Source: Pseudomonas paralcaligenes
Lineage (GTDB): Bacteria > Pseudomonadota > Gammaproteobacteria > Pseudomonadales > Pseudomonadaceae
Assembly: GCF_019655855.1 (NCBI RefSeq)
Contig: NZ_BPFX01000003.1
Span: 372,001-436,000, forward strand
DNA length: 64,000 nucleotides
Reading direction: 5' to 3'
Part shown: positions 60,646 through 64,000 of the stretch, piece by piece
Numbering within the stretch: the first letter of the stretch is position 1
How the letters are laid out: each line of letters begins with the position of its first letter
Program-made: the position numbers and the translations under genes
Notes under the pieces: generated by a model
Seen by the model: the letters and a program-made list of their open reading frames with translations, nothing else
The model's database searches: none
Told to the model about the DNA's origin: nothing

Positions 60646-60676
60646 ACCTTAAGATTAAAGTTTACTTGAATGTCAA
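60646..60676 (-). promoter_or_regulatory. MerR-type promoter of the Old Yellow Enzyme gene
   Basis: Read on the minus strand: -35 TTGACA (60671-60676), a 19-base spacer with TTCAAGTAAACTTTAA, -10 TAAGGT (60646-60651). An over-long 19-base spacer with a central palindrome is the hallmark of MerR-activated promoters. Confidence 0.7.
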
Positions 60677-60725
60677 GGCCTTCTTCACGGCCCGGACGGC
60701 GGCATCCACGCGCCGGGGGCGTGCC

Positions 60726-61787
60726 TCACTCGATGCGCAGTTCGCCGGACCCGGGCAGGCTGGTCACCAGGTCGGGGCCCAGCAGCCTGGCCGGGGTGTA
60801 TGCGCCGCCGGCCGGCCGCATCTGCATCAGGTAGCCGATCACCGCCAGCGCGCCGGTGACGGTCAGGCTGTAGACATTGACCGTGCGCAGCCGGGCCACC
60901 TTGCGCTCGCCACGGGCGTTGCGCGCCTCGCCCCAGACCCAGGTGCCCGACCCGGCGCGCTTGCCGTCGTCCGGCCCGGTGACCTTCCTGCCGATGCGGG
61001 CCTTCAGCTGCCGCTGTACCCAGGGCAGCCCCAGCAGCGGCCGGATCAGGTTGGCGAACCTGGCGCCGCGGATCATGCCCGGGGAGCCGGGCACGAACAC
61101 CTCGATGTTGGGGATGCCGGTGGTGTGGTAGGCGGTGGAGACATCGCCCCACGGTATGGTCATGGCGGGCTTCTCGCCGTCGCCGAAGTCGATGCGGCGC
61201 ACCCGGTAGGCCAGCGGCACCTGGACGATCCTGCCGTCGCGGCGCACCTTGCCGCCCTGCGCCAGCCCCTCGATGGAAGTCTTGGCGGTGCCGGGCGACA
61301 TGCTGGAGCGGGTGTCGAAGCCCAGCGCCAGATGGGTCGCATCGGGCAGGGCGGCCTTGAGCGCGGCGGCCACGCAGTCGGTGGGGATCACGTCGAATCC
61401 CACGCCAGGGCAGATCACCACGCCGGCGGAGCGCGCAAGTTCGTTCAGCGTCTGGGCGTGCTCGAACACCGGGATCTCGCCGGTGATGTCCAGGTAATGG
61501 GCGCGGGCGCGCAGGCAGGCCTCCATCATCGGCGCCGCGGTGGCGGAGAAGGGGCCGGCGCAGTGCATCACCAGTTCGCAGCCCGCGAGCTGCGCGTCCA
61601 GCCGCGCCGCGTCGTCGAGGTCGAAGTGGCGCGCTTCGAGGCCGAGTTCGCCGGCCAGCGCCTCGACCTTGGCGCGGCTGCGGCCGGCCAGCACCGGCCG
61701 GTAGCCGCGCCGCACCGCTTCGCGGGCGATCAGCTCGCCGGTGTAGCCGTACGCGCCGTAGATCATCCAGTTCATCTGCTTTTCCAT
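60726..61787 (-). CDS. Rossmann-fold reductase of the saccharopine dehydrogenase / trans-acting enoyl reductase type
   Basis: 353 residues. The NADP-binding loop is YGAYGYTGELIA at the N-terminus, then RPVLAGRSRAKVEAL and VMHCAGPFSATAAPMMEACL, the pattern of the saccharopine-dehydrogenase-like family. A hydrophobic C-terminal stretch (SLTVTGALAVIGYLMQM) suggests membrane contact. The start at 61787 (MEKQMNWMIYG) has GGAGCC upstream. The substrate is unknown. It lies in the MerR-linked cluster. Confidence 0.85.
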   Translation of the reverse strand: MEKQMNWMIYGAYGYTGELIAREAVRRGYRPVLAGRSRAKVEALAGELGLEARHFDLDDAARLDAQLAGCELVMHCAGPFSATAAPMMEACLRARAHYLDITGEIPVFEHAQTLNELARSAGVVICPGVGFDVIPTDCVAAALKAALPDATHLALGFDTRSSMSPGTAKTSIEGLAQGGKVRRDGRIVQVPLAYRVRRIDFGDGEKPAMTIPWGDVSTAYHTTGIPNIEVFVPGSPGMIRGARFANLIRPLLGLPWVQRQLKARIGRKVTGPDDGKRAGSGTWVWGEARNARGERKVARLRTVNVYSLTVTGALAVIGYLMQMRPAGGAYTPARLLGPDLVTSLPGSGELRIE

Positions 61788-61841
61788 GGGAGGCTCCTGC
61801 ATGGCCAAGGGCGTGCCGCTGCCCGCCCGGGTAGGTGCCGG

Positions 61842-61872
61842 ACGGTAACCTTGAAGTTTGATTCAATGTCAA
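61842..61872 (-). promoter_or_regulatory. MerR-type promoter of the Rossmann reductase gene
   Basis: Minus strand: -35 TTGACA (61867-61872), 19-base spacer with TTGAATCAAACTTCAA, -10 TACCGT (61842-61847). The start codon follows about 50 bases after the expected transcript start. Confidence 0.7.
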
Positions 61873-61968
61873 TGGCGTCCCCGGAGCCGGCACGGGCGCT
61901 CCGGGTGCGTCGTTCCCGGTCGTTCATCGCTGACACGAATCGCAATGAATAAAGCCCCAGGCATACGC

Positions 61969-61999
61969 TTGACCTTGAAGTTCAGTTCAACGTTAGGGT
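61969..61999 (+). promoter_or_regulatory. MerR-type promoter of the acetoacetate-decarboxylase-like gene
   Basis: -35 TTGACC (61969-61974), 19-base spacer with TTGAAGTTCAGTTCAA, -10 TAGGGT (61994-61999). It would give a leader of about 85 bases. Confidence 0.68.
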
Positions 62000-62091
62000 G
62001 CGCGCAGCTGGCCTCTCACGGGTGTGCCAGGGCGACGCAGACAACCTGGTTTCTGCTCGCATATCAGCCATAGCGCAAGCGGAGACAGAGA

Positions 62092-63096
62092 ATGAAACTC
62101 GGAAATATTGCGGTGATCACGGGCGTGCTGCTGAGTGCCTTTGCAGCCTCCTCATGGGCGGAAGGCTCCCTCGAGGCCGCCCAGCTCGACGGTAGGACCA
62201 ACCTCGGCGGCCGTGAAGTGAGTGTGGTGGCGGGCGGGCTGTACGACCGCTATGAGTCGAACCCGCCGCTGTCGGTGATCGCCGCCGAGGCCCCGGACAT
62301 CGACCTGAGCTGGTTCCGGGAACTGAAGAAGACCAAGGTCGACATGGGCTTCGAGTCGTATTCGCCCAACTTCTACTACAAGAACAACCGGGTGACGGCG
62401 GTGTTCACGGCGGACATCGACAGGCTGAGGGAGCTGATGCCCGCCGAGGTCCTGGAGCAGGTCCAGCCGCTTCAGGTGTGGCCGGGCCGGGGCCTGGTGG
62501 CGTTCACCGCCTACGCCTACGAATACTGCGACAACGACAGCTACAACGAGATCGCGCTGTCGATCGTCACCAACAAGCCCGGCAACTCCAACCTGGGGCC
62601 CGTCACCCTGGTCGGCCAGGCCATGTCCAAGGACTTCTGGGGCTACGTGCTCAAGCTGCCGGTGAACACGGAGCTGGCCGAGGTGCGGGGCGTGGTCGGC
62701 TACAACCTGCCGAAGTGGCTGACCGAGATCAACTACCGCGAGACCGACAAGTCGGTCGTCTTCGAGATCATCGACAAGGAGACGGGGAAGGTCGACGTCA
62801 CCTTCGAGGGCGAGAAGCTCGACGACCTCTCGGACGAGATCGAGATGGTCACCAACAGCTTCACCAACATCGGCCACGACGGCGAACTGGCCTACGGCTA
62901 TGCGATTTCGCGCCAGCAGCGCCATGCGTCGAGTTCGAGCGAGGAGGCGGTGAAGCTCACCCTGAACGACGGCAGCCTGTCCGCCTACATCGAGTCCCTG
63001 GATCTGGGGAAAATGATGAAGTACGAGTATGTGCCGGCATTCCAGAGCGCTCTGTATTCCCCGGAGCCCCTGAAGGCCATGCTGGAACGCGATTGA
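62092..63096 (+). CDS. Exported acetoacetate decarboxylase-family protein
   Basis: 334 residues. A signal peptide (MKLGNIAVITGVLLSAFAASSWA) is followed by an ADC-type domain with VWPGRGLVAFTAYAYEYCDNDSYNE and GVVGYNLPKWLTEI. K208 in the PKW sequence aligns with the Schiff-base lysine of acetoacetate decarboxylase. Classical ADC is cytosolic, so export is unusual; many relatives use the fold for other hydration or aldol chemistry. The function is not known. It lies in the MerR-linked cluster, convergent with merR. Confidence 0.78.
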   Translation: MKLGNIAVITGVLLSAFAASSWAEGSLEAAQLDGRTNLGGREVSVVAGGLYDRYESNPPLSVIAAEAPDIDLSWFRELKKTKVDMGFESYSPNFYYKNNRVTAVFTADIDRLRELMPAEVLEQVQPLQVWPGRGLVAFTAYAYEYCDNDSYNEIALSIVTNKPGNSNLGPVTLVGQAMSKDFWGYVLKLPVNTELAEVRGVVGYNLPKWLTEINYRETDKSVVFEIIDKETGKVDVTFEGEKLDDLSDEIEMVTNSFTNIGHDGELAYGYAISRQQRHASSSSEEAVKLTLNDGSLSAYIESLDLGKMMKYEYVPAFQSALYSPEPLKAMLERD

Positions 63097-63115
63097 GTCT
63101 GCACGGATTCGAGGA

Positions 63116-63140
63116 AGGTCAGGCCATGATGGCCTGACCT
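63116..63140. terminator. Hairpin between the ADC-like gene and merR
   Basis: AGGTCAGGCCAT and its exact complement separated by one base (a 25-base palindrome), between convergent stops; it acts in both directions if it terminates. No T-tract. Confidence 0.6.
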
Positions 63141-63149
63141 GATCGCGCT

Positions 63150-63596
63150 TCAGACCGGGGTCGAGCTTTCGCCCGTCGCCTTTTCCTCCTGCCCGTCTTC
63201 GCGAAAGCGGTTCAGCAGCCGTTGCGTGTTGTCGGCGCAGCGCATTCCCTCGGGCTTGGTCTCGATGCCCTCGATGACGATGAGCAGTTGCGCCTTGTTC
63301 TGCTCCAGGCGCTTCTGCAGCATTTCGATCTCGCCCACCTTGCGCTTGAGGCTCTCCAGCAGCTCGTCATGCCGCCAGGCATCGGAACTGACCGGCAGCA
63401 GGTTGCGAATCTCCTCCAGCGAGAAGCCGGCGTTCTGCGCGCCGGCGATGATCTCCAGGATCCACACCGCTTCGGGACCGTAATCACGGTAGCCGTTCGC
63501 CTTGCGCTCCACCGACCTGATCAGGCCGCTCGACTCGTAGAAGCGGATGCGCGAAGCCGTCAGGCCGCTGAGCTTCGCCAGTTCTCCGATTTTCAT
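63150..63596 (-). CDS. MerR-family transcriptional regulator
   Basis: 148 residues. The N-terminal winged helix begins [26 protein letters not shown], followed by [31 protein letters not shown] and a long coiled-coil dimer helix (about 80-115). The C-terminal effector part is short with one cysteine, so it is not a mercury- or copper-type sensor; an organic ligand is more likely. Divergent from the hydrolase at 63854, whose promoter has the same architecture as three others in the cluster. The regulon is inferred from these sites. Confidence 0.92.
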
Positions 63597-63617
63597 ATCC
63601 CACACTCTCGAAAGGCG

Positions 63618-63648
63618 TTGACGTTAAAGTTTACTTTAAACCTACAGT
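63618..63648 (+). promoter_or_regulatory. MerR-type promoter of the alpha/beta hydrolase gene
   Basis: -35 TTGACG (63618-63623), 19-base spacer with the perfect palindrome TTAAAGTTTACTTTAA, -10 TACAGT (63643-63648). It lies 21 bases from the merR start, so it can also serve merR autoregulation. The leader to 63854 would be about 200 bases. Confidence 0.72.
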
Positions 63649-63853: not shown

Positions 63854-64000
63854 ATGGGATACGTCACAACGCAGGACGGGGTTGAGATCTTCTACAAGGA
63901 CTGGGGCCCACGCGACGCCCAGGTGATCTACTTCCACCACGGCTGGCCGCTCAGCGCCGACGACTGGGATGCGCAGATGCTCTTCTTCCTGGCGCAGGGC
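63854..64000 (+). CDS. Alpha/beta hydrolase (chloroperoxidase-like), truncated by the window end
   Basis: The first 49 codons are present. [18 protein letters not shown] and [19 protein letters not shown] match the start of the non-heme chloroperoxidase/esterase group, with HHGWP forming the oxyanion region. The catalytic Ser, Asp and His lie beyond the window. Confidence 0.85.

Follow-up and report, generated by a model that had tools for sequence, protein, structure and literature searches.

Four MerR-type promoters in an Old Yellow Enzyme gene cluster of Pseudomonas paralcaligenes point to a conserved, modular enzyme regulon

The window analysed here, a stretch of 64,000 nucleotides of Pseudomonas paralcaligenes (NCBI RefSeq assembly GCF_019655855.1, contig NZ_BPFX01000003.1, positions 372,001 to 436,000), ends in a cluster of four enzyme genes and one gene for a MerR-family regulator, merR (Table 1). 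The enzymes are an Old Yellow Enzyme (OYE), a reductase with a PF03435 domain, a protein resembling the acetoacetate decarboxylase (ADC) superfamily and an alpha/beta hydrolase (ABH). An earlier note on this DNA had described a promoter with a 19-bp spacer ahead of each enzyme gene, and a merR gene in the cluster. All four promoters read as described, each spacer being exactly 19 bases long and each promoter facing its enzyme gene, and the regulator gene was present as well. The dyads of all four promoters resemble TTnAAGTnnACTTnAA, to which sites 2 (TTGAATCAAACTTCAA) and 3 (TTGAAGTTCAGTTCAA) fit less well than sites 1 and 4. When the 64 kb were scanned with the degenerate pattern TTGACNTTNAANTNNACTTNAA at up to 3 mismatches, six matches were obtained, all at these four places; sites 1 and 3 also match on the opposite strand. 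Shuffled sequences gave an expectation of 0.01 matches, and none of 100 shuffles reached 6. The palindromic operator core of sites of this type is AAGTnnACTT, which presumably differs from the operators of other MerR-family activators. Site 4 is likely the autoregulatory operator of merR, since merR, on the opposite strand, starts 21 bp downstream of it.

Table 1. Genes and candidate promoter/operator sites at the end of the window (mismatches refer to the genome-wide pattern scan)
Feature	Position	Strand	Details
Old Yellow Enzyme family NADH:flavin oxidoreductase, 410 aa	59384..60616	minus	PF00724, E 8e-52
Promoter/operator 1, TTGACA-19-TAAGGT	60676-60646	minus	faces OYE gene; 0 mismatches
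Rossmann reductase with saccharopine-dehydrogenase NADP-binding domain	60726..61787	minus	PF03435, E 9e-15; start codon by eye
Promoter/operator 2, TTGACA-19-TACCGT	61872-61842	minus	faces PF03435 reductase gene; weaker dyad; 1 mismatch
Promoter/operator 3, TTGACC-19-TAGGGT	61969-61999	plus	faces ADC-like gene; 0 mismatches
ADC-superfamily protein, signal-like N-terminus (by eye)	62092..63096	plus	PF06314 below cut-off; predicted fold
MerR-family regulator, 148 aa, single cysteine Cys120	63150..63596	minus	PF13411, E 2e-16; PF09278, E 3e-11
Promoter/operator 4, TTGACG-19-TACAGT	63618-63648	plus	faces alpha/beta hydrolase gene; 0 mismatches
Alpha/beta-fold hydrolase, N-terminal part	63854..64000	plus	open reading frame; 276 aa in all, continues outside the window (L002:5855-6685)

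The whole genome (5.47 Mb) was scanned at up to 2 mismatches with a pattern that included the -10 element; patterns and no matrix were used. Five places were found, namely the four window sites (0 to 1 mismatch) and a fifth at C3:322569 (2 mismatches), and the reversed control pattern gave one match. The fifth site lies about 110 kb from the cluster. The stretch behind it resembles the N-terminal part of an Acinetobacter regulon protein of the ADC family, with 58% identity over 64 residues. Since the ADC similarity then stops while the open frame runs on as a sequence that appears hydrolase-like by eye, the gene (L007:1489-2061) looks like a decayed ADC-type relic. Thus even this weak match adjoins a relative of a regulon gene. 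A short-chain dehydrogenase-like gene, recognised by eye, is located upstream of the decayed gene.

In a scan of 199 genomes of the genus, own included (at most 1 mismatch, -10 part of the pattern), the motif was present in 83 and the reversed pattern in none. A MerR orthologue (E<=1e-24) was found in 90 of the 199 genomes, with 82 among the 83 site-bearing genomes and 8 among the 116 others (Fisher p 3e-45, a value that ignores phylogeny and linkage). The sites numbered 114, and 86 of them lay no more than 1 kb from a merR orthologue, where an operator would stand next to the gene of its own regulator. In a set of 57 genus genomes, again with the own genome, the MerR matches were split into strong ones of at least 126 bits (16 genomes, one with two copies) and weak ones of at most 63 bits. 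All 16 strong loci (L008-L023) carried a site at no more than 1 mismatch. The same was true of only one of the 14 weak loci (L025 of L024-L037), and one more (L028) had a site with 2 mismatches.

Six query proteins were searched in 16 longer loci (L038-L053). A close OYE homologue was present in 15 of these and a divergent merR-OYE pair, which is the commonest unit of the regulon, in 12; besides merR and OYE, no other queried protein occurred in 11. The genes that join this unit, usually with a site of their own, encode ADC-like, saccharopine-dehydrogenase-like (SDH), alpha/beta-hydrolase, DJ-1/PfpI and epimerase-like proteins, and the ADC, ABH and SDH genes of the remaining longer loci mostly stand behind their own site. 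Equivalents of site 1 precede OYE in relatives, and equivalents of site 4 occur in L038 and L040.

The earlier note had spoken of a local regulon and had proposed the conservation of the sites beside orthologous genes as a check. Such conservation was found within the genus, also where the sites are unlinked, and reaches other proteobacterial genera, but the regulon is not only local, and distant members were found in 11 genomes. While 102 of the 114 genus sites lay no more than 5 kb from a MerR orthologue, 12 did not: four were 40-861 kb away on the same contig, seven were on another contig, and one was in a genome without MerR. Linkage does not account for these distant sites. Eleven of them precede a family gene (ADC-like 6, alpha/beta hydrolase 2, OYE 2, epimerase-like 1), and the ADC-like targets are spread over six genomes, each with its own site. 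The epimerase-like NAD-binding protein, which was discovered only via the sites, is a further target (L204:2881-3975, L091:1867-2808, L225:4940-5893); its relatives in Ralstonia and Pantoea are 68-76% identical and also stand behind a site.

As the scan patterns contain the -10 element, the spacing was tested separately, using the palindrome core without -35 or -10 on 16 loci (about 240 kb) that had been selected by their similarity to MerR. Fifteen palindromes were present in 13 of these loci, and L046, L050 and L053 had 1-mismatch sites only. All 14 core palindromes with a full TTGAC had TAnnnT at a spacer of 19 bp. None had it at 16-18 or 20-23 bp, and one had it additionally at 24 bp. The 19-bp spacing, which the earlier note took to be diagnostic, is characteristic of MerR-type activators and was exact in all 14 cases in loci chosen independently of the motif, but a metal-type branch of MerR proteins shares the operator. 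According to a passage of PMC9909328, MerR-type promoters have spacers of 19-20 bp and their regulators activate by kinking the DNA.

This metal-type branch was seen when named genomes were scanned for exact sites. The scan yielded at least 117 stretches with at least 122 sites, counts which are not frequencies. A target was defined as a family homologue on the same strand that starts within 400 bases of the site. Besides Pseudomonas, the genera among the matches listed were Acinetobacter, Serratia, Ralstonia, Cupriavidus, Burkholderia, Pandoraea, Halomonas, Marinobacter and Bradyrhizobium. Among the same matches, 97 of the 122 sites precede genes of the regulon families (OYE 79, ADC 7, ABH 4, DJ-1/PfpI 3, PF03435 2, epimerase-like 2), and the last T of the -10 element, which was outside the search pattern, is present in 121. 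An Acinetobacter locus (L129) contains six sites at no more than 1 mismatch, facing two DJ-1/PfpI genes and one ADC, OYE, ABH and PF03435 gene each, the PF03435 gene lying about 450 bases from its site. A sample of 369 genomes from across the class was also scanned for the exact 31-base motif, which was found in 1 of the 368 besides the own genome, so the regulon is patchy in the class.

Related clusters were also found in plasmid records. Six of eight such regions had a site at no more than 1 mismatch, the Agrobacterium region (L223) had 2-mismatch sites only, and a coniferyl aldehyde dehydrogenase gene was located nearby in three (Agrobacterium, Shinella and Roseateles). A record of 3.97 Mb labelled as an Acinetobacter baumannii plasmid (L227, NZ_CP064203.1), which is chromosome-like in size, bears regulon DJ-1/PfpI, OYE, PF03435 and ADC-type genes with sites.

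Among the matches listed, 14 operators of Halomonas, Salinicola, Marinobacter and relatives face other genes: 10 are located in front of a peroxiredoxin gene and 4 in front of a metal-type merR gene. A heavy-metal ATPase is encoded in 10 of the 14 loci listed with metal-type merR. In L149:3668-7409 the operator is followed by a gene for a 1-Cys-type peroxiredoxin, a two-cysteine metal-type merR gene and a heavy-metal P-type ATPase gene. A similar arrangement, in which a peroxiredoxin is an odd companion of metal export, was seen in L104, L105, L111, L124, L162, L163 and L190.

The window's regulator matched the MerR helix-turn-helix (HTH) and DNA-binding domain models PF13411, PF00376 and PF09278 above their cut-offs. 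Its scores with the NCBIfam models, in bits and with the cut-off in brackets, were 75.8 for CueR (147.4), 57.7 for MerR (150.85), 56.5 for ZntR (167.95), 50.8 for CadR-PbrR (151.45), 45.4 for NmlR (175) and 42.6 for SoxR (116.9). CueR was the top-scoring model and also the nearest solved structure. A set of 143 MerR-type proteins was kept after duplicates and lengths below 110 or above 220 had been dropped. Cysteine was found at window position 120 in 108 of the 109 proteins that scored at least 100 bits, the lone exception stopping at the end of its stretch, and in all 17 regulon-linked MerR proteins below 100 bits. Cys52 occurs in 24 of the 109 and is absent from the window's protein. When aligned with E. 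coli CueR, whose metal ligands we take to be Cys112 and Cys120, the window's Cys120 corresponds to the second metal cysteine, and the first is absent. The metal-type MerR proteins of Halomonas and relatives hold both in the same alignment. The two-cysteine CueR/HMRTR metal site was therefore not found in the window's MerR, where the Cys120 equivalent stands alone, and neither was the [2Fe-2S] cysteine cluster of SoxR, as the protein has one cysteine. In a midpoint-rooted FastTree tree of 144 sequences, 126 clustered with the window's MerR to the exclusion of CueR and all metal-type sequences (support 0.79), with an inner group of 110 (support 0.98).

The sites, their exact spacing, specificity and conservation, and their co-occurrence with the regulator are direct results of the computation. 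The four sites are probably operators of the one MerR regulator encoded at 63150-63596, which would run a conserved and modular enzyme regulon. By analogy with the family, an apo or repressing MerR dimer would sit in the over-long 19-bp spacer, and once activated it would kink the DNA, making the -35 and -10 elements usable for sigma-70 RNA polymerase. Each enzyme gene would be switched on separately, and merR itself would be controlled from site 4. The members would mostly bring their own operator wherever they are located in the genome, with OYE as the core and ADC-like, PF03435 reductase, alpha/beta hydrolase, DJ-1/PfpI and epimerase-like enzymes as further modules. The conserved switch and the stretched promoters point to an uncharacterised system of defence or clean-up against reactive organic compounds.

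Several observations weigh against so simple a picture. Eight of the 90 MerR-bearing genus genomes have no site at 1 mismatch or fewer, and two of these (G006 and G082) have a weaker site before OYE. In G119 there is a site, the twelfth of the distant ones, with neither MerR in the genome nor a gene of the regulon families behind it. The MerR locus of G101 (L220), from which OYE is distant, has no site near MerR at up to 3 mismatches. Conservation of site 2 is poor: its counterpart in L040 has 2 mismatches, and no counterpart was found in L216 at up to 1. In L040, the ADC gene also lacks a site of its own when 2 mismatches are allowed. The co-occurrence of site and MerR is partly trivial, since 86 of the 114 sites are within 1 kb of merR, and related species are non-independent observations. 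In the named genomes, 11 of the 122 sites among the matches listed had no assigned target, and a Pseudoalteromonas plasmid region (L224) contains a MerR relative with no site and no family gene. A further 14 of the 122 belong to the metal-type branch with its different, two-cysteine MerR. Because two branches share the operator, the motif alone cannot name the regulator or the signal outside Pseudomonas.

The regulator most likely represents an electrophile- or carbonyl-sensing subfamily of MerR. Its lone Cys120 would capture the signal, an electrophile that reacts with thiols or a reactive carbonyl, and the enzymes would reduce or convert such compounds, for example enones, enals, quinones and dicarbonyls. 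We give this account of the signal roughly even chances. It was derived from the enzyme set, with its ene-reductase, DJ-1/PfpI and neighbouring aldehyde dehydrogenases, together with the absence of half of the metal site. The argument for sensing by the lone cysteine is the conservation of that residue, and a ligand pocket or non-cysteine metal ligands might serve instead, which also counts against the proposal.

The main rival is that the regulon serves the catabolism of one compound, such as a plant enone, an aromatic aldehyde or a lipid-derived keto acid, which MerR would bind in a pocket. Multi-gene clusters with ADC-like, hydrolase and reductase genes, the coniferyl aldehyde dehydrogenase near them on three plasmids, and the apparent export of the window's ADC-like protein (judged by eye), as for an external substrate, would all fit such a pathway. 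However, 11 of 16 loci contain none of the six queried proteins besides merR and OYE, and the clusters vary in composition, with dispersed members. A MerR protein of 148 amino acids also has no large ligand domain. No transporter, coenzyme A ligase or thiolase was among the recognised families, although the neighbours were not systematically searched for these. We consider the catabolic explanation unlikely and favour detoxification as the role of the regulon; the earlier note had left the choice between the two.

Still less probable is that the regulator senses metals as the CueR/HMRTR proteins do and that its enzymes answer metal-linked oxidative damage. CueR as best model and nearest structure, and the identical operator of the metal-type branch, speak for it. 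However, the CueR score is far under its cut-off and only one of the two thiolate ligands is present. Among the matches listed, no metal transporter is found among the families behind the 97 sites, and the 14 sites beside metal systems belong with the two-cysteine MerR. A metal regulon is thus unsupported by cysteines, model scores and targets. The last rival, extremely improbable, is coincidence: the four sites would be sigma-70-like promoters or repeats that lack a common regulator, as the departure of sites 2 and 3 from the dyad consensus might suggest. It was rejected on the shuffles, the reversed pattern and the conservation, to which the distant targets and the exact 19-bp spacing can be added.

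With MerR, CueR and SoxR, the electrophile- or carbonyl-sensing regulator proposed here shares the HTH and dimerisation domains, a dyad in a 19-bp spacer and a gene adjoining its target. Its targets are enone- and carbonyl-type enzymes, unlike the metal export of these activators or soxS, and it has a lone cysteine. CueR, the Cu(I) sensor, is closest in model and structure and in the cysteine aligned with Cys120. It differs in the Cys112 equivalent, which the window's MerR lacks, and in the low score, and there are no copper genes among the recognised targets. NmlR/AdhR is a formaldehyde-responsive MerR protein linked to carbonyl detoxification, for which cysteine chemistry is suspected; its conserved cysteine presumably lies in the DNA-binding half. 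The tie to carbonyl detoxification would be common to both, but the window's protein scores far below the NmlR cut-off, has its invariant cysteine at 120 and lacks Cys52. The genes adhC and estD were not seen in the regulon, though no search aimed at them was made. A passage of PMC9909328 describes NmlR/AdhR as redox-responsive. In E. coli NemR-nemA, a regulator gene adjoins an OYE gene and the theme is likewise electrophiles, but NemR is a TetR-type repressor and not a MerR activator, and its operator and gene set are different. LiuR/GnyR, a further MerR-type regulator, acts through an operator of its own on the liu/gny genes for leucine and acyclic terpenes.

The system would be a new regulon, and its regulator a new subfamily within a familiar class. 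No description of the regulon was found in the Creative Commons-licensed literature of PubMed Central. In PMC5045206, matrices were built for five metal subfamilies, one of them an HMRTR group whose motifs are 22 bp long, and a related operator may be printed among the HMRTR matrices. Tentatively, and with slightly less confidence than in the electrophile or carbonyl signal itself, a new MerR subfamily can be imagined in which a CueR-like two-cysteine metal site became a one-cysteine electrophile sensor, with a dispersed, gene-by-gene regulon for enones, aldehydes and dicarbonyls in Proteobacteria and an operator code common with the metal-sensing branch. If the lone-cysteine reading is true, it would be an example of a metal-sensor fold turned into an electrophile sensor, and a ready biosensor. 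The 31-bp promoter signature locates targets with very little background. The target enzymes (OYE ene-reductase, DJ-1/PfpI, ADC-like and PF03435 reductase) occur widely and are of interest for biocatalysis; to our knowledge their physiological roles are mostly unassigned.

Just past the end of the window, adjoining the hydrolase gene, L002:6810-9647 contains genes for a LysR-type protein, a WrbA-like quinone reductase and an MFS-like transporter (by eye); no MerR-type site was found in this stretch at up to 3 mismatches. The hydrolase itself matched mostly alpha/beta hydrolases among the NCBIfam models (best 25 of 31), all below their cut-offs. The OYE retains the HAAHGYL stretch, as aligned with solved OYE-family structures.

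No ADC relative turned up when the sequence of the ADC-like protein was searched against solved structures. Of five AlphaFold2 models, the best had a pLDDT of 87.9 and the other four 62.0-78.2. Foldseek with the model gave nine matches at E<=0.001, and all nine were ADC-superfamily chains (acetoacetate decarboxylases and MppR), with TM-scores to the query of 0.46-0.52. On the predicted structure, the ADC-superfamily fold of this protein is settled. Lys208, in GYxLPKW, was invariant in an alignment of 30 hand-chosen sequences (the window's protein, 22 of 120 listed proteins and 7 from the loci). From this invariance and by analogy with the ADC mechanism, it is the putative Schiff-base (catalytic) lysine. 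ADC-like members of the regulon occur with and without a signal-like N-terminus, as judged by eye (L095:1310-2347, L091:756-1673, L098:6479-7390), so the compartment of action may differ between related enzymes.

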